A stretch of 10,741 bases of DNA from Propionibacteriaceae bacterium UBA4569. GTDB taxonomy: Bacteria; Actinomycetota; Actinomycetes; Propionibacteriales; Propionibacteriaceae. Position numbers and translations under genes: made by a program. Under the pieces are notes generated by a model that was not told the DNA's origin, ran no database searches, and saw nothing but the letters and a program-made list of their open reading frames with translations. Each line of letters starts with the position of its first letter. Positions within the stretch are counted from its first letter, which is position 1. The DNA is taken from the NCBI GenBank assembly GCA_002387005.1, contig DGKN01000102.1:9336-20076 (forward strand), written 5' to 3'. Of this stretch, positions 3,113-10,741 are shown one piece after another.

Positions 3113-3618
3113 TGTCGTCGCACGATCCCGAGCTGGTGGGGGAGCCCGTTCCCGGGCGGCCCGACCTGCTCAAGATCACCCCGGAGCCGATCCCGGTCGT
3201 CCCGAACCCTCACCACACGACCCGCACCAAGGCCCGCATGCGGGCGATGGACCTGCTGTTCGAGTCGGAACTGCGCGGACGTGACGTGCTGGAGACCTTG
3301 GACGAGCGCATCGCGGCGAATGAGCCGCCCGTGCGCCTGTACACCCGTGACATCGTCCGCGGTGTCGAGGCCTTCCGGGACGAGATCGACGAGCGGATCA
3401 GCGAGGCAGCCTCCGAGGAGTGGCCCTTGGAGCGGATGCCCCGGGTCGACCGAAACCTGGCTCGGATCGCGGTCTACGAGCTGGACCACACCGAAACGCC
3501 GTCCCAGGTCATCATCGCCGAGTGCGTCCAGCTGGCCGAGGAGTTCAGCACGGACGACTCCGCACCCTTCCTGAATGGCCTGCTCGCGAAGGTGGCCCGC
3601 ACCCGGGCGTCCGAGTGA
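3112..3618 (+). CDS. nusB: Transcription antitermination protein NusB
   Basis: NusB, with NusE (S10), binds boxA in rRNA leaders and forms part of the antitermination complex. The product is 168 residues. The conserved all-helical domain begins at about residue 38 with TRTKARMRAMDLLFESELRG, followed by YTRDIVRGVEAFRDEID, the RMPRVDRNLARIAVYEL helix and the C-terminal PSQVIIAECVQLAEEFSTDDSAPFLNGLLAKVA. The roughly 37 residues before this domain are Pro-rich and look disordered; most NusB proteins start close to the TKAR helix. The ATG shares one base with the efp stop, so the two genes are translationally coupled. The downstream 135 bases, up to a convergent gene, hold no clear gene and only short inverted repeats (for example CACCGGTG). 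Confidence 0.95.
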   Translation: MSSHDPELVGEPVPGRPDLLKITPEPIPVVPNPHHTTRTKARMRAMDLLFESELRGRDVLETLDERIAANEPPVRLYTRDIVRGVEAFRDEIDERISEAASEEWPLERMPRVDRNLARIAVYELDHTETPSQVIIAECVQLAEEFSTDDSAPFLNGLLAKVARTRASE

Positions 3619-4876: not shown

Positions 4877-6586
4877 ATGACGCGTCTTGTGAACAATCCC
4901 GATGACTTTCCCGCGGAGGCCGTGGCCGGCTTCGCGGACGCCTACAGCGAGTATGTGAAGCCCGTCTTCGGCGGCGTCGTCCGCTCCACCAAGACGCGTC
5001 AGGGCAAGGTAGCGCTGGTGGTCGGAGGTGGCTCCGGCCATTACCCGGCCTTCGCCGGTTGGGTCGGCCAGGGCTTCGCCGACGGTGCGGTCTGCGGAAA
5101 CATCTTCTCCTCACCGTCGGGCGCTCAGGCCTACTCGGTCTGCAAGGCCGCCGACCGCGGCGCTGGCGTGCTGATCGGCTTCGGCAACTATGCCGGGGAC
5201 GTGCTGCACTTCGGCCAGGCCGTCGAGCGGCTGTCCGGTGAGGGGATCGATGCCCGCACCTTGCTGGTCACCGACGACATCGCCTCGGCCAAGCCGCAGG
5301 AACATCTCAAGCGCCGCGGCATCGCCGGCGACCTGCCCACCTTCAAGATCACCGGCGCCGCCTGCGAGGCGGGGCTGGACATCGACGAGGTGGTGCGGGT
5401 TTTCAACAAGGCCAACGAAGCCACCCGCAGCTATGGCGTCGCCTTCGCCGGCTGCACCCTGCCCGGCCAGAACCACCCGCTGTTCACCGTTCCGAGCGGG
5501 CAGATGGGCATCGGCCTGGGCATCCACGGCGAGCCCGGCGTCGACGAAGCGCCGCTGGGCACCGCCGACGAGGTCGCCAAGCTGCTCGTCGACGGCCTGC
5601 TCGCCGACCACCCTGCTGATGACGGCCAGCGCGTCGTCGCGCTTCTCAACGGCCTGGGCGCGAGCAAGTACGAGGAGATGTTCGTCGTCTGGCATTCGGT
5701 GAAGAAGTACCTGCGGGAGGCCGGACTGGTGATCGCCCAGGGTGAGGTGGGGGAGTTCGTCACCAGCCTCGACATGGCCGGCATCAGCCTGACGCTGGTC
5801 TTCCTGGACGAGGAACTGGAGAAGTTCTGGTTCGCGCCCTGCGACACCCCCGCCTACCGTCGTGGCTCGATCGGGGACGTCGAGCGCGACGAGACCGAGT
5901 TGCAGCAAGAGGCGATCAAGGCGTCCGTCGAGCGTCCCGGTAGCGAGAACTCCCAGGCGCTGGCTGGCCGTGTCGCGCAGGTGCTGGAGCAGGTTGCGGC
6001 CACGCTCAAGCAGAACGAGGAGAAGCTGGGTGACCTGGACGCGGTGGCCGGCGACGGAGACCATGGCATCGGCATGGCCCGCGGCTCGGCAGCTGCCGTG
6101 GCCGCAGCCAGGGATTTGACCGGTCAGCGGGCGGGTGTCCAGACGACGTTGAGTGGGGCCGGGGCCGCCTGGTCCGATGCGGCCGGTGGCACCTCGGGCG
6201 CGCTGTGGGGCGCCGTTCTCACAGCGCTGGGCAATGCGCTCGGCGACGACGACGATCCGCAGACCACGACGCTGGCTGGCGCAGCCCGCGCCACGCTGGC
6301 ATCGGTGCAGCGCCTGGGTGGAGCGCAGGTGGGGGACAAGACGATGGTCGACGCGCTGCAGCCTGCGGTCGACGCCTTCGTCGCCGCCATCGAGAGTGGC
6401 AAGCCCGCTGCCCAGGCTTTCGCCGAGTCGGTGCCCGCGGCGCAGACGGGTGCTGAGTCCACCGCCGACATGGTCGCGAAGCTCGGCCGCGCCCGTCCGC
6501 TGGGCCAGAAGTCGGTCGGCACTCCCGACCCCGGGGCCACCAGCCTGGCGCTGGTGCTCGAGACGGTCGCCAAGGCCGTCGCCTGA
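4877..6586 (+). CDS. DhaK-DhaL fusion ketose kinase (dihydroxyacetone kinase family)
   Basis: A single-chain, ATP-dependent kinase of 569 residues, the length usual for Dak-type fusions. The DhaK domain (about 1-330) has GGGSGH at 50-55 and GIHGEPG with the substrate-binding histidine H217. After a linker (about 335-358), the DhaL domain holds the magnesium/ATP aspartates D388, D393 and D395 (DAVAGDGDHG) and GGTSGALWG at 437-445. No PTS partner is present, in keeping with ATP use. In the substrate region I read GHYPAF where classic dihydroxyacetone kinases have GHEPAH, and GFGNYAGD in place of the usual K-N-Y-x-GD. This resembles my recollection of actinobacterial erythrulose-type kinases. 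It is divergent from a polyol-type dehydrogenase, suggesting polyol to ketose to ketose phosphate. Dihydroxyacetone remains possible. Start set by a strong SD. Confidence 0.9.
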   Translation: MTRLVNNPDDFPAEAVAGFADAYSEYVKPVFGGVVRSTKTRQGKVALVVGGGSGHYPAFAGWVGQGFADGAVCGNIFSSPSGAQAYSVCKAADRGAGVLIGFGNYAGDVLHFGQAVERLSGEGIDARTLLVTDDIASAKPQEHLKRRGIAGDLPTFKITGAACEAGLDIDEVVRVFNKANEATRSYGVAFAGCTLPGQNHPLFTVPSGQMGIGLGIHGEPGVDEAPLGTADEVAKLLVDGLLADHPADDGQRVVALLNGLGASKYEEMFVVWHSVKKYLREAGLVIAQGEVGEFVTSLDMAGISLTLVFLDEELEKFWFAPCDTPAYRRGSIGDVERDETELQQEAIKASVERPGSENSQALAGRVAQVLEQVAATLKQNEEKLGDLDAVAGDGDHGIGMARGSAAAVAAARDLTGQRAGVQTTLSGAGAAWSDAAGGTSGALWGAVLTALGNALGDDDDPQTTTLAGAARATLASVQRLGGAQVGDKTMVDALQPAVDAFVAAIESGKPAAQAFAESVPAAQTGAESTADMVAKLGRARPLGQKSVGTPDPGATSLALVLETVAKAVA

Positions 6587-6604
6587 CCCTTGGCGAGTCA
6601 ACGT

Positions 6605-6679
6605 CCGCCAAAATCGCCCGCTCAGGGCGATCCGGTCCCGCCATGGGACCGGATCGCCCTGAGCTGCGCGTTCTGGCGG
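6605..6679. repeat. 75-bp palindromic element, copy 1
   Basis: The element is bounded by CCGCCA (6605-6610) and TGGCGG (6674-6679) and is symmetric about base 6642. A perfect 20-bp inner stem lies at its core. Between the outer 6-bp arm and the inner stem is a short, mostly unpaired stretch. The same architecture and length recur at 10363-10437, with about 68% ungapped identity and the best matches at the ends and centre. The flank before the element (GTCAACGT) is also similar to that of the other copy (GTCCACGTT). It lies between two convergent genes. Confidence 0.8.
6620..6664. terminator. Perfect 20-bp stem-loop, likely bidirectional terminator
   Basis: GCTCAGGGCGATCCGGTCCC (6620-6639) pairs without mismatch with 6645-6664 around the 5-base loop GCCAT. 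It lies 33 bases after the kinase stop and 33 bases beyond the convergent DUF72 stop, so it can serve both transcripts. There is no U-tract, as is common for actinobacterial hairpin terminators. It forms the core of the 75-bp repeat. Confidence 0.7.
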
Positions 6680-6697
6680 AATGCCGCCGCCGCCGGG

Positions 6698-7429
6698 TTA
6701 CTGGCCGAGCATCCAGCGCAGGGTGCGGGCATTGCGCACCGCGTTCCCGCCGCCGTCGTTGTTGAAGTAGGCGTGCACCGAGTGCCCTTGTGCGGCCCAC
6801 TCCCGGAAGCGGTCGGACCACCACCCCATCGAGTCGTCCGAATAGCTGCCGCCGTAGAGCCAGCGCCCGTCCGGCCCGTGGAAGCGCACGTAGACCAGCG
6901 GGTGGGTGGCGCGCAACACACACGGGAGCCCAGCCCCCGAGGTCACCACGTAGACGGCCCGATGCCGCTCCAGCAGGGAGAAGACCTCGTCGCAGTGCCA
7001 GCTCGGGTGCCGGAACTCCACCGCCGCCGTGATCCATGGCGGAAGATGGCCGAGGAACCAGCCCAGCCGCTCGTCGTCGCGCGCCAACCCGGGCGGCAGC
7101 TGGACCAACAGGGTTCCACGCTTGTCGCCGAGCGCGTGCATCCCTACCTCGATGCGCCCGATCCACTCCTCGGGTCGGTGGAGCATGCGCGCGTGCGTCA
7201 GCCCCCGCGGGGCCTTCACCGTGAGCAGGAAGCCAGCGGGCAGGCGGCGCTGCCAGGACGCGAAGGTCGCCGGCCTGGGCCAGCGGTAGTGGGACGCATT
7301 GAGCTCCACCGTGTCGAACTCCGCGCAGTAGGCGGCCAGACGGTCCTGGGTCGCCATCCCCGGCGGATACAACACTGCGTCCCAGTGGTCGTAGGACCAT
7401 CCCGAGGTCCCGATCCTCACCTCACCCAT
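6698..7429 (-). CDS. DUF72 (YecE-like) family protein
   Basis: A 243-residue soluble protein with the DUF72 TIM-barrel pattern. It begins with the hallmark RIGTSGWSYDHW, followed by FDTVELNASHYRWP, FLLTVKAPRGLTH, TLLVQLPPGL, AAVEFRHPSWH, VYVRFHGPDG and HAYFNNDGGGNAVRNA near the end, in normal order and length. The family is widespread but has no assigned biochemical function. The frame is open further upstream, to 7570, but that extension is low-complexity and runs into the opposing gene. ATG 7429 gives the usual family start and has TAGGTT 7 bases ahead of it. It is convergent with the ketose kinase and divergent from the glycoside hydrolase. Family call firm, role unknown. Confidence 0.9.
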   Translation of the reverse strand: MGEVRIGTSGWSYDHWDAVLYPPGMATQDRLAAYCAEFDTVELNASHYRWPRPATFASWQRRLPAGFLLTVKAPRGLTHARMLHRPEEWIGRIEVGMHALGDKRGTLLVQLPPGLARDDERLGWFLGHLPPWITAAVEFRHPSWHCDEVFSLLERHRAVYVVTSGAGLPCVLRATHPLVYVRFHGPDGRWLYGGSYSDDSMGWWSDRFREWAAQGHSVHAYFNNDGGGNAVRNARTLRWMLGQ

Positions 7430-7436
7430 GCCCGCG

Positions 7437-7442
7437 AACCTA
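7437..7442 (-). promoter_or_regulatory. Candidate -10 box, leaderless DUF72 gene
   Basis: TAGGTT on the minus strand is 7 bases before the ATG at 7429, with no SD site. Hexamer and spacing are identical to those of the dehydrogenase gene at 4796-4801, and the surrounding bases are nearly so. Confidence 0.5.
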
Positions 7443-7471
7443 GCCCCGCAACCCCCCGGGCCACCCGTGAT

Positions 7472-7496
7472 CCGCCAACGGTGGACCCGTTGGCGG
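7472..7496. promoter_or_regulatory. 25-bp perfect palindrome, candidate operator
   Basis: CCGCCAACGG (7472-7481) and CCGTTGGCGG (7487-7496) are exact inverted repeats around TGGAC. The site lies in the 97-base divergent spacer between the DUF72 and glycoside hydrolase genes and covers the candidate -35 box TTGGCG (7490-7495). A dimeric regulator bound here could block or assist the hydrolase promoter. The binding protein is unknown. Confidence 0.55.
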
Positions 7497-7519
7497 CGCC
7501 CCCTCCCGACGCCTACCCT
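7490..7519 (+). promoter_or_regulatory. Candidate promoter of the glycoside hydrolase gene
   Basis: A -35-like TTGGCG (7490-7495), an 18-base spacer and TACCCT (7514-7519) precede the ATG at 7527 by 7 bases, which predicts a leaderless mRNA. This supports 7527, rather than the in-frame ATG at 7428, as the start. The GGG at 7522-7524 is too close to the ATG to be a ribosome binding site. Confidence 0.5.
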
Positions 7520-7526
7520 CAGGGCC

Positions 7527-10271
7527 ATGCGCGACGAGGTTGCTGCCACGGCAGAAGGACGACGGCTCACCCACTCGTCCTCTGACGACTCCGCCTGGCG
7601 ACGCTGGGGCCCCTACCTGAGCGCGCGCCAGTGGGGCACCGTCCGTGAGGACTACACCGACAACGGCGACGCCTGGAACGCCTTCCCCTTCGACCACGCC
7701 CACCTGCGCACCTACCGCTGGGGTGAGGACGGTCTGGGTGGGCTCACCGACCGCTACGGCTTCCTGAACCTCGCCGTCGCCCTGTGGAACACCCACGACG
7801 ACCGCCTCAAGGAGCGCCTGTTCGGCCTCACCGGGCCCGAGGGGAATCACGGTGAGGACGTGAAGGAGTACTACTGGGCCCTCGACGCCACCCCCACCCA
7901 CTCCTGGGGACAGTGGCGCTATCGCTACCCGCAGGCCGCCTACCCCTACCAACAGCTCCGCGACGCCAACCGCGATCGCGGCTTCGACCTCGACGAGTAC
8001 GAGCTCGCGGACACCGGCGTCCTGGCCGAGAACCGCTTCTTCGACGTCACCGTCACCCACGCGAAGAACTCCTCGTCCGACATCTGCATCGTCTACGAAG
8101 CCACCAACCACGGACCCGACCCGGCCCCGCTGCACCTCGTCCCCCAGCTCTGGCTGCGCAACACCTGGGCCTGGGGACGGGACCGCCGCAAGGCGTCCAT
8201 GCAGGGCCACGAGTTCGACGAGCCCACCGGACACGTCCAGGTCAGCATCGAGCACGCCTGGCTGAACCGCTACACGCTGGTGGCCGAGGGATCCCCGGAG
8301 CTGCTGTGGTGCGCCAACGAGACCGACGAGGTGGCCTGCTTCGGGGCCGCCGAGAACTCCCACCCGCACCCGAAGTCGGCGGTCGACCGGGCGATCGTCC
8401 ATGGCGACCGGAGCCTGCTCTCGGACGAGAACAATGGCTCCAAGGTGGGCCTTGACTACGTCTTCGAGTCCGTAGAGCCGGGGCAGACGGTTGCCGTCCG
8501 GTTGCGTCTGGTGGCGGGCGACGCCCCCGAGGACCCCTTCGGACCCTCCTTCGACGAGACCCTGCGCACCCGCCGCGCCGAGGCGGACGAGTTCTACGAC
8601 GCCGTCATCCCCGACCGGGTGAGCGAGGTCGACCGGCTCGTCGTCCGACGTGCCTTCGCGGGCCTCAACTGGGGCAAGCAGGTCTACCGCTACTCGGTGC
8701 GCGAGTGGCTGGACGGGGACCCCGGATCACCCGTCGCGCCGCCCGAGGCACGCCGCGCTCCCGAGCCCTGGGGCCGCAACACCAACTGGAAGAACCTCGA
8801 CCTCGCCGACGTCATATCGATGCCGGACGACTGGGAGTACCCCTGGTTCGCCACCTGGGACCTTGCCTTCCACACCGTCGCGCTGGCGCACATCGACCCC
8901 TCCTTCGCGAAGAACCAGCTGCTGCTGATGTGCAGGGAGTGGTCCCAGCACCCCGACGGCCAGCTGCCTGCCTATGAATGGAACTTCTCGGACGTGAACC
9001 CGCCGGTGCACGCGTGGGCGGCCTGGCAGGTCTACGTCGCTGATGGGTCCAGCGACCACGAGTTCCTGGCCCGGATCATGCACAAGCTGCTGCTCAACTT
9101 CGGCTGGTGGGTCAACCGCAAGGACGAGGCGGGCAACGACCTCTTCGAGGGCGGCTTCCTCGGCATGGACAACATCTCGGTCTTCGACAGGTCGAAGCAG
9201 ATCCCGGACGGCTGGCGGCTCGAGCAGTCGGACGCGACGAGCTGGATCGCCTTCCTCTGCCTGGAGATGCTGCGGATCGCGTCCGAGCTGGCCCGCGTCG
9301 ACCCCGACTGGGGTGACGTCGCGACCACCTTCATGGAACGTTTCTTGTCGATCTCCCAGGCGGTCGAGAACTTCGGCAGCAACCGGGAGAGCCTCTGGGA
9401 CGAGCAGGACGGCTTCTTCTACGACATCCTCGTCGACGAAAACCAGCGGGTGGAGCCGGTGCGCGTTCGCTCGATGGTGGGCCTGGTGCCGTTGTTGGCG
9501 GTCGCGAACGCGTCCGCAGCGCTGACGCATCAGGTGCCGGAACTGGCGGAGCGCCTGGTCTGGCTGCGCCGCCACCGCCCCGACCTGGTGCACTACCTGC
9601 TCACCGAGAAGCAGGACGACGACTCGGCGATCACCTTTTCGCTGGTCGACCCGACCCGCTACCCGCGCATCCTCAACCGGCTGCTGGACGAGCAGGAATT
9701 TCTGTCCCCGCACGGAATCCGGTCGCTGTCGGCGGTCTACTGCGAGGGCACGGAGCTCGACATCGTGGGCCAGCAGATGCACATCCGCTACACCCCCGGT
9801 TGGTCGGAGGACGGGATGTTCGGTGGCAACTCCAACTGGCGTGGGCCGGTCTGGTTCCCGCTGAACTCGCTGCTGGTGGACGCTCTGCGCACCCGCGCCG
9901 AAGGCGTTGGTGGTCGTGCATTGCGCTTCGAGTTCCCGACTGGGTCAGGGCAGGAACTTGGGTTGTACGAGATCGCGAACGCCATCGAACAGCGCTTGTT
10001 GGACCTCTTCCGTCCCGGGGTCGATGGTCGGCGTCCCGGTGCGCAGCGAGACCAGCCCTCGGGGGAGTTGTGGGACGAGCACCCGGTCTTCAGCGAGTAC
10101 TTCGACGCAGATGTTGGCACCGGTCTGGGTGCCTCGCACCAAACGGGTTGGACGGCGATGGTCGCGCACATGGTGTGCCCCCCGCCGATGGGTCCGCCAG
10201 CGACTCCGTCCAACTCATCCCCCATCCCGGCGGACGAGTGCACCCAGAGCCCCGACCCGAACCAGGCCTGA
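7527..10271 (+). CDS. GH63 / MGH1-like glycoside hydrolase (glucosidase)
   Basis: A 914-residue (alpha/alpha)6-barrel glycosidase of the clan holding GH63 glucosidases and mannosylglycerate-type hydrolases. No signal peptide is present, so it should act on intracellular sugars. The N-terminal region has [17 protein letters not shown] at about 27-43 and [15 protein letters not shown] near 103-117. The catalytic domain shows [14 protein letters not shown] with the likely acid D445, [26 protein letters not shown] near 768-780, and [14 protein letters not shown] with the likely base E857. Catalytic roles are assigned by analogy with E. coli YgjK (GH63). An in-frame ATG at 7428 would add 33 residues of poor composition and cross the promoter, so I reject it. 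The last 30 or so residues are Pro/Ser-rich and look disordered. The substrate cannot be fixed; alpha-glucosides or glucosylglycerate-like solutes are candidates. Confidence 0.88.
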
Positions 10272-10362
10272 GGTTCCCCGGGCCGGTCTCTCCCATTCCC
10301 TGACACTCGCCGCGCGATCCCTGATGTTCCCCGATCCGATCGAGGGCGCCTGCGTCCACGTT

Positions 10363-10437
10363 CCGCCAAAAAGCGCGCGTGAGAGCGATCCGGTCCCGCA
10401 GCAGGACCGGTTCCAGCTGTGGCGCACATCGTGGCGG
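10363..10437. repeat. 75-bp palindromic element, copy 2
   Basis: The second copy has the same ends (CCGCCA 10363-10368, TGGCGG 10432-10437) and the same length, and is symmetric about base 10400. The inner stem is decayed: GATCCGGTCC (10387-10396) pairs with 10404-10413 with one mismatch. Its left arm, read in reverse, matches the right arm of copy 1 well, including GGGACCGGATCGC. It lies in the 276-base gap after the glycoside hydrolase stop, which holds no other convincing gene except a doubtful 30-codon frame, and may partly terminate that transcript. Confidence 0.75.
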
Positions 10438-10447
10438 ACCAGGGAGG

Positions 10448-10459
10448 TGACAGCTGTCA
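10448..10459. promoter_or_regulatory. 12-bp palindrome, possible operator
   Basis: TGACAGCTGTCA is a perfect 12-base palindrome with no spacer, 88 bases before the ATG at 10548. Its size and position suit a dimeric repressor site, but no regulator gene is in view and no clear promoter box is next to it. Confidence 0.3.
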
Positions 10460-10547
10460 TGGCCGGTGCACGACCAGAGACACTGGTTCGCTCGGCGTTG
10501 GCTCGCGATCGTGGAAGGGAATCGTCCCCACCACTGCGGAGGCAGCC

Positions 10548-10741
10548 ATGACCACGAGCATCGCGAACACCCCCAGCCCGACGGCAACCGCCGCGGACCT
10601 TCTCACCGAGCAGGCCCGGCTGCTGGGCATCGCAGGGCGATCCTGGGCGGCCCGACGGGTGTCGTGGGCGCTCGGGTCGGTGCTCGTGCTGTCGGTGGCC
10701 TCGGCCTGGAATGCCGGGCAAGGCGCGGCGGCCGCGGCCGC
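10548..10741 (+). CDS. Probable membrane protein, N-terminal fragment (3' end outside window)
   Basis: The frame is open from ATG 10548 to the window end, 64 codons with no stop. GGAGG (10538-10542) is 5 bases before the ATG, the strongest ribosome binding site in the second half of the window, which makes this a credible gene start. The first 37 residues are hydrophilic (LLTEQARLLGIAGRSWAARR), with a basic end. Residues from about 38 to 55 (VSWALGSVLVLSVASAW) form a hydrophobic segment preceded by Arg, fitting one membrane helix with an N-in orientation, then an Ala/Gly-rich stretch. I do not recognise the family. Too little is present to assign a function. Confidence 0.65.
   Translation, partial: MTTSIANTPSPTATAADLLTEQARLLGIAGRSWAARRVSWALGSVLVLSVASAWNAGQGAAAAA

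Follow-up and report, generated by a model that had tools for sequence, protein, structure and literature searches.

Introduction

ERIC elements are 127 bp long, and the same length, 127 bp, is given for the enterobacterial repeat unit RU-1. For the hairpins of REPINs, the length and the pairing of the middle are described as seeming critical and compensatory changes as common (PMC3116915); a GTAG-type start is listed for many RAYT-linked REPs, and REPs usually number more than 100 copies (PMC2817692). Rickettsia palindromic elements (RPEs) are noted for in-frame insertion in genes (PMC10969869).

Here we describe a 77-bp palindromic element, two copies of which lie in a 10,741-nt stretch of DNA (the window) from Propionibacteriaceae bacterium UBA4569. 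Like REPINs and BIMEs, it is an extragenic inverted doublet forming one hairpin of near-fixed length, with compensatory changes and a species-specific sequence (PMC3116915, PMC2817692). It differs from them in that no RAYT or Y1 gene was found with it, in having no GTAG-type start, in its copy number of about 18 versus more than 100, and in its conserved blocks, which lie at both ends of the hairpin and at its centre. With ERIC and small MITE-like palindromes it shares the form of a short imperfect palindrome located between genes, sometimes at gene 3' ends, and lacking its own transposase (PMC10969869). In contrast to ERIC, it measures 77 bp, is known from one genome so far and shows no target duplication. 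As in RPEs, the palindromes leave several reading frames open, but no 77-bp copy was found inside a plausible gene.

Results

Copy 1 spans positions 6604..6680 (75-bp core 6605-6679, 5-nt centre 6640-6644) and copy 2 positions 10362..10438 (75-bp core 10363-10437), neither being assigned to a strand. Both were matched by BLAST and a covariance model, and copy 1 is further supported by its fold, in agreement with the preliminary description, which had reported two 75-bp palindromes here. The cores are identical at 51 of 75 positions (68%). Symmetric positions are paired in 29 of 37 cases in copy 1 and in 25 of 37 in copy 2, which is the more degraded and has unlike arms. The perfect 20-bp inner stem claimed for copy 1 was recovered in the fold. 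Against 200 dinucleotide shuffles, the folding z-scores of the two strands were -9.5 and -11.6 for copy 1 and -2.7 and -4.0 for copy 2, whose plus strand was equalled by 3 of the 200 shuffles. No Rfam family matched in the window at gathering scores, and no tRNA was found there.

The repeat unit consists of the 75-bp core plus one outer T/A pair, which varies more (21 of 30 arm starts have T), so that the ends read TCCGCCA. Each arm runs from TCCGCCAAAA through 16 variable, often paired bases to ATCCGGTCCC, and a 5-nt centre separates the arms. The element thus has terminal inverted repeats, and each arm holds two conserved boxes a constant distance apart, the conservation of the central ATCCGGTCCC being similar to that of the ends. 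Compared with the symmetric consensus, the 16 complete 77-bp copies carry 285 substitutions and no indels.

The family is dispersed in the host genome (G000), an assembly of 263 contigs that is 79% complete and in which the window contig measures 20 kb. Sixteen complete copies measure 77 bp and one measures 78 bp; a further copy is cut by a contig end, and one member is degenerate (C47:1401-1473). Two copies, on C236 (E 4.5e-7) and C29 (E 1.7e-4), were found by the covariance model from outside the set used to build it, the remaining ones matching it by construction. Copy 1 used alone as a BLAST query retrieved 15 other places at E <= 0.01, namely 14 further complete copies and the one cut by a contig end (best 9e-16), so the two window copies are not the only matches. 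We attributed weaker BLAST places (13-40 bases, E 0.2-10) to chance; those inspected were on C131, C141, C232 and C35 for copy 1 and on C154 for the consensus, together with C125 and C94 as printed.

Searches of the one sister species examined (genome 99% complete) gave no member of the family. In 56 relatives the covariance model gave nothing at E <= 0.001 among the best 84 or fewer of hundreds to thousands of candidates per genome. A family-wide search gave matches in 4 of 198 genomes, host included, at E <= 0.01, among the best 24 or fewer of hundreds to thousands of candidates per genome; with 84 or 24 candidates scored, a strongly diverged relative could escape these searches. The three non-host genomes each held a single weak place (E 6e-4, 0.003 and 0.006), and the best of these, in G131, was a different palindrome lacking CCGCCA ends. 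Two window copies that are only 68% alike might by themselves suggest a chance resemblance of independent GC-rich palindromes, but the 15 places matched by copy 1 and the silence of the model in the 56 relatives, with three weak single places in the 197 other family genomes, make the probability of such a coincidence negligible.

Beyond this bacterial family, two Streptomyces plasmids matched 37 query bases at E 0.06, which we took as chance, and phage records gave no match. A pattern for half the element, matched by 13 of the 15 aligned copies, had two single matches, both in planctomycete MAGs and taken as chance, in a genome contig collection of 84,980 species, and none in viral contigs; these collections may omit the host and its near relatives. 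Among the papers listed by searches of open-licence PMC literature, none mentioned the 77-bp repeat.

The preliminary description had seen in the two copies an old, dispersed REP/MITE-like family kept palindromic. About 18 extragenic copies with graded divergence and compensatory changes support this picture, except that "old" needs to be qualified, since the family was found neither in the sister species nor convincingly elsewhere in the bacterial family.

The arms covaried more than shuffled and slid controls did. Forty-three cells were changed on both sides versus 23.7 +/- 3.7 in shuffles, none of 500 shuffles reaching this value, and slid versions of the alignment gave only 10-16; when pairs changed on both sides were counted instead, 2 of 500 shuffles reached the observed value, a control that retains no relatedness among copies. 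Arms were more similar within one copy (0.74) than between copies (0.69; permutation p 0.0006). Pairing is not kept in every copy, as the arms are clearly unlike in C32, C236, C40, C28b and C76. Inverted repeats, a single hairpin of near-constant length and compensatory changes, as in REPINs, were all found across the sixteen 77-bp copies. The pair of conserved boxes at constant distance in each arm, symmetry at the DNA level and a fixed length would also suit the binding site of a dimeric or tetrameric protein, involved in chromosome organisation or replication, that imposes the symmetry. However, the middle varies and still pairs, which such a site does not need, and for a host-essential site it would be unusual to be missing from the sister species and to have only three weak single matches elsewhere in the family; we regard this reading as very improbable.

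Upstream of copy 1 an ORF on the plus strand (4877..6586), which we take to encode a dihydroxyacetone-kinase-like protein, stops 17 bp before the element, and a convergent DUF72 (YecE-like) gene on the minus strand (6698..7429), with homologues carrying PF01904, ends 17 bp after it, so that copy 1 lies 17 bp from the stop codon of each neighbour. A large plus-strand ORF (7527..10271, start codon uncertain), presumably glycosidase-like, has its stop 90 bp before copy 2. The motif DRIAL-x-x-AFWR(N) is indeed readable in copy 1 (plus strand) and in copy 2 (minus strand), but the tails on neighbouring ORFs proposed with it are not seen: the genes stop before the element, and no plausible neighbour running into a copy was found.

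None of 19 places lies inside a plausible gene. Thirteen start less than 100 bp behind a stop codon, five copies lie between convergent genes, and in tandem contexts 8 of 10 copies are closer to the upstream stop than to the downstream start, a skew that chance would give about once in 18 (one-sided, worked by hand on a small sample). The places behind stop codons and between convergent genes and the very stable fold of copy 1 would fit a hairpin that functions in RNA, as a bidirectional terminator or mRNA 3'-end stabiliser, and is copied and kept for that role. On the transcribed strand of 11 oriented copies, however, G-U pairs (19) were not in excess of A-C mismatches (27), and the next 10 bases held only 0-2 T, short of the T-tract of intrinsic terminators; since neither feature was seen, the symmetry looks like one of DNA, not of an RNA terminator. 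Moreover, a terminator scan flagged neither window copy, and C40 and C225 already lie behind terminator-like hairpins, as judged by eye. A role as RNA hairpin is therefore quite improbable.

Beside several copies lies a short repeat that occurs across the genus, here in an extended form. A degenerate version of this companion (TTCCCCGA..) on the plus strand at 10327..10361 directly abuts copy 2; it has 11 mismatches in 32 positions to the companion string and is thus weak taken alone. Copy 2 with its left flank aligns to C56 over 102 bp at 79%, with equal length on both sides. The similarity outside the left end (GTCMACGT) noted previously is present, although it is short and in copy 2 represents the end of this companion.

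A linked RAYT gene and target-site duplications had also been envisaged, and neither was borne out. Y1_Tnp (PF01797) had no match in the host (79% complete) or the sister genome G001 (99% complete), with controls recovered, an absence that is weak evidence in an incomplete host genome. No GTAG or GTGG beside the stem is shared across 16 flank pairs, as judged by eye. The gene upstream of copy 1 is present in the sister genome at 79% identity, without a match there to the window's next gene after it; the comparison gave no clean empty site, and no movement was seen.

Inverted-repeat ends, extragenic location and small size are also what an ordinary MITE would show, that is, a deletion derivative of an IS whose terminal inverted repeats were TCCGCCAAAA, mobilised by a DDE transposase encoded in the unassembled part of this genome of 263 contigs and 79% completeness, or since lost. 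Against this, no duplicated target site of 2-10 bp stood out from shuffled flanks when 16 copies were analysed with two boundary choices (18 tests, best p 0.03). Every row with the end motif CCGCCAAAA-N0-2-CG (18 rows, 17 distinct places) falls within a copy, and the motif reveals no parent IS in an assembly lacking about a fifth of the genome (as it requires CG within 2 bases, other ends could escape). BLAST with the consensus listed no longer relative, and a terminal-repeat-only element does not need a centre conserved about like its ends. We therefore consider a MITE of this kind unlikely.

Discussion

The copies are probably non-autonomous fold-back elements of fixed length, apparently private to the species, that work like REPIN/ERIC-type repeats; the family is new and its kind ordinary. 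Such an element would be copied as a whole unit by a trans-acting enzyme that recognises the folded single-stranded hairpin, or that binds both arms as a dimer, and whose gene either sits in sequence missing from the assembly or has been lost in the meantime. Pairing may be kept because only foldable copies spread or because template switching corrects one arm against the other. Any influence on the host is probably a by-product of stable hairpins lying in 3' regions. It seems doubtful that the element is instead a length-locked palindrome spreading without a classical transposase, RAYT or IS parent, through a host or other enzyme that uses the single-stranded hairpin as its substrate, or through template switching at forks, and travelling partly in company with a second short hairpin repeat.

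As a fold-back family it adds to the known palindromic repeats one without a visible RAYT and with fixed length and measurable DNA-level arm covariation. One genome carries it, and no other examined member of the bacterial family does so convincingly. There are probably further assemblies of this species, since the cluster that includes the window's DUF72 protein counts 4 members, spread over 3 contigs, of which the longest reaches 206 kb, against 20 kb for the window contig. A strain-to-strain comparison could show whether the element moves and what moves it; otherwise it would be an ordinary intergenic repeat.

A dispersed family of fold-back repeats

The two 75-bp palindromic cores with CCGCCA/TGGCGG ends are present in the window where the preliminary description had placed them, at 6605-6679 (copy 1) and 10363-10437 (copy 2). 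They share 51/75 positions, symmetric pairing holds at 29/37 positions in copy 1 and 25/37 in copy 2, and the perfect 20-bp inner stem described for copy 1 was confirmed by folding. Both copies folded better than dinucleotide shuffles, copy 2 by a modest margin, with 3 of 200 shuffles folding as well as its plus strand. Counting the outer T/A pair, the unit is 77 bp long (6604-6680 and 10362-10438); 21 of 30 arms start with T.

When the host assembly (2.58 Mb in 263 contigs, 79% complete) was searched by BLAST with copy 1, 14 further complete copies were obtained, plus one truncated by a contig end (E <= 0.01). A palindrome-aware covariance model built from 15 copies, whose E-values are rough, added two copies outside its training set, at C236:1081-1157 (E 4.5e-7) and C29:17106-17183 (78 bp, E 1.7e-4), where C-numbers denote host contigs and the copies on them, and a pattern search gave a degenerate copy at C47:1401-1473. 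This search and copy count, suggested in the preliminary description, bore out a dispersed family with 19 places in all: 16 complete copies measure 77 bp and one 78 bp, and the other two are a truncated and a degenerate copy. Pairs among the 16 copies are on average 70% identical (range 53-87%), and the copies differ from a symmetric consensus by 285 substitutions and no indels. With the 77-bp frame set from the left end of each copy, the CCGCCA right end was in place without mismatches in 13/16, and with 1, 1 and 2 in the others. The end motif gave 18 rows at 17 distinct places in the host assembly, from which about a fifth of the genome is missing, all within copies; the reversed control pattern gave four matches. 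By eye, copy C47 is flanked by an additional imperfect inverted repeat with sides of ~44 bp, which extends as far as the end of the contig (L049:4905-5065, an extracted piece at the end of contig C47), and this element seems to be the centre of a larger palindrome.

Symmetry of the arms

Each arm consists of TCCGCCAAAA, 16 variable bases and ATCCGGTCCC, with a 5-nt centre between the arms. Across 15 copies, 43 cells were changed on both sides, versus 23.7 +/- 3.7 in shuffles, none of 500 of which reached that number; sliding the partner by 1-3 bases gave 10-16. The number of pairs with a both-side change was 18 versus 12.8 in shuffles, 2/500 of which reached the observed value. Arms were more alike within a copy than between copies (0.74 versus 0.69, permutation p 0.0006), an effect small on average and differing from copy to copy, with 33/36 identical arm bases in C16, C47 and C230 and 17 to 21 in C32, C236 and C40. 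Hence some copies preserve or renew their palindrome, while in others it decays. Template-switch correction of imperfect palindromes, described in the literature, could contribute to the symmetry without selection.

In the 11 copies of defined transcription direction, the transcript strand held 19 G-U pairs and 27 A-C mismatches, and the ten bases behind the hairpin contained 0-2 T; a terminator scan flagged neither window copy. Together, these results argue for DNA as the level at which the symmetry is important or originates.

Position relative to genes

According to gene calls made by simple codon scoring, with the genes of the window as training set and with approximate starts, none of the 19 places lies inside a plausible gene. 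Called ORFs overlapping copies at window 10419-10739 and at 4141-4386 of L047 (another extracted piece) were set aside, as later in-frame ATG codons exist, and so was one overlapping C230, which runs across two N bases. In the frame that follows the N bases at C230, which was judged by eye to be the correct one, the stop of an amidohydrolase gene (PF01979) lies 2 nt before the element. At C99, the first base of the copy doubles as the third base of a stop codon. Gene contexts were convergent in five places (including the degenerate copy), divergent in two and tandem in ten, with two at contig ends, where one side only is visible. In 13/19 places, no more than 100 bp separated the start of the copy from a preceding stop codon, and the upstream stop was closer than the downstream start in 8/10 tandem contexts (distances set by hand).

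A companion repeat

The similarity that had been noted outside the left end is explained in part by a degenerate companion repeat abutting copy 2 (10327-10361). This short, hairpin-like repeat, with the core CCCCGAGC(C/T)TGTCGAGGGG, is common to the host and its sister species and flanks some palindromes. At C56 and C76 it does so on both sides in direct orientation (L053:2995-3026 and 3114-3145; L050:1007-1038 and 1151-1182). The short form occupies four distinct places in the host, two of them (C80, C113) on contigs with no known palindrome copy, 25 distinct places (26 rows) in the sister genome and two in one further genome, and was absent from nine other genomes searched. Given this distribution, the companion repeat probably predates the palindrome. 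In the host, an extended form (...GGGGCCCCTCCGGCC) had five matches genome-wide at <=3 mismatches. All were within 245 bp of a palindrome, and in two cases 4 bp separated the match from the left end of the palindrome. As the string was derived from copies adjoining elements, only three matches count as independent, namely C236, the right side of C56 and C225. There were also looser matches kilobases from elements.

Distribution and classification

With the covariance model, no match was found in 56 relatives at E <= 0.001. At E <= 0.01, 3/197 other genomes of the same bacterial family had one weak place each, the best of which was rejected as unrelated upon inspection of its sequence. In the single same-genus genome, all matches were short (13-31 bases; best E 0.125). 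In this sister genome, at locus L100, the orthologue of the window's kinase-like gene is followed, by eye, by a different hairpin ending in GCTCTCAGTTTTGG; the gene that comes next in the window had no match behind it. Searched against 84,980 species, a half-element pattern had two isolated matches, both in planctomycetes, and viral contigs yielded no match; these collections may omit the host's own species.

Of the checks raised in the preliminary description, the search for target-site duplications at the copies found none, and no Y1_Tnp/RAYT gene was detected in the host (about a fifth missing) or the sister. The REP/MITE-like reading holds mostly in kind. Membership of the REPINs was not supported, as no RAYT and no GTAG start were found, and neither was membership of the classical MITEs, as no target duplication was found; a parent IS might lie in the part absent from the assembly. 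The copies establish its dispersal, fixed length, symmetry, placement and restricted distribution; recognition may be of the single strand, by an enzyme presumably missing from the assembly. The palindromes form a new, small family of a known kind, apparently private to one species.
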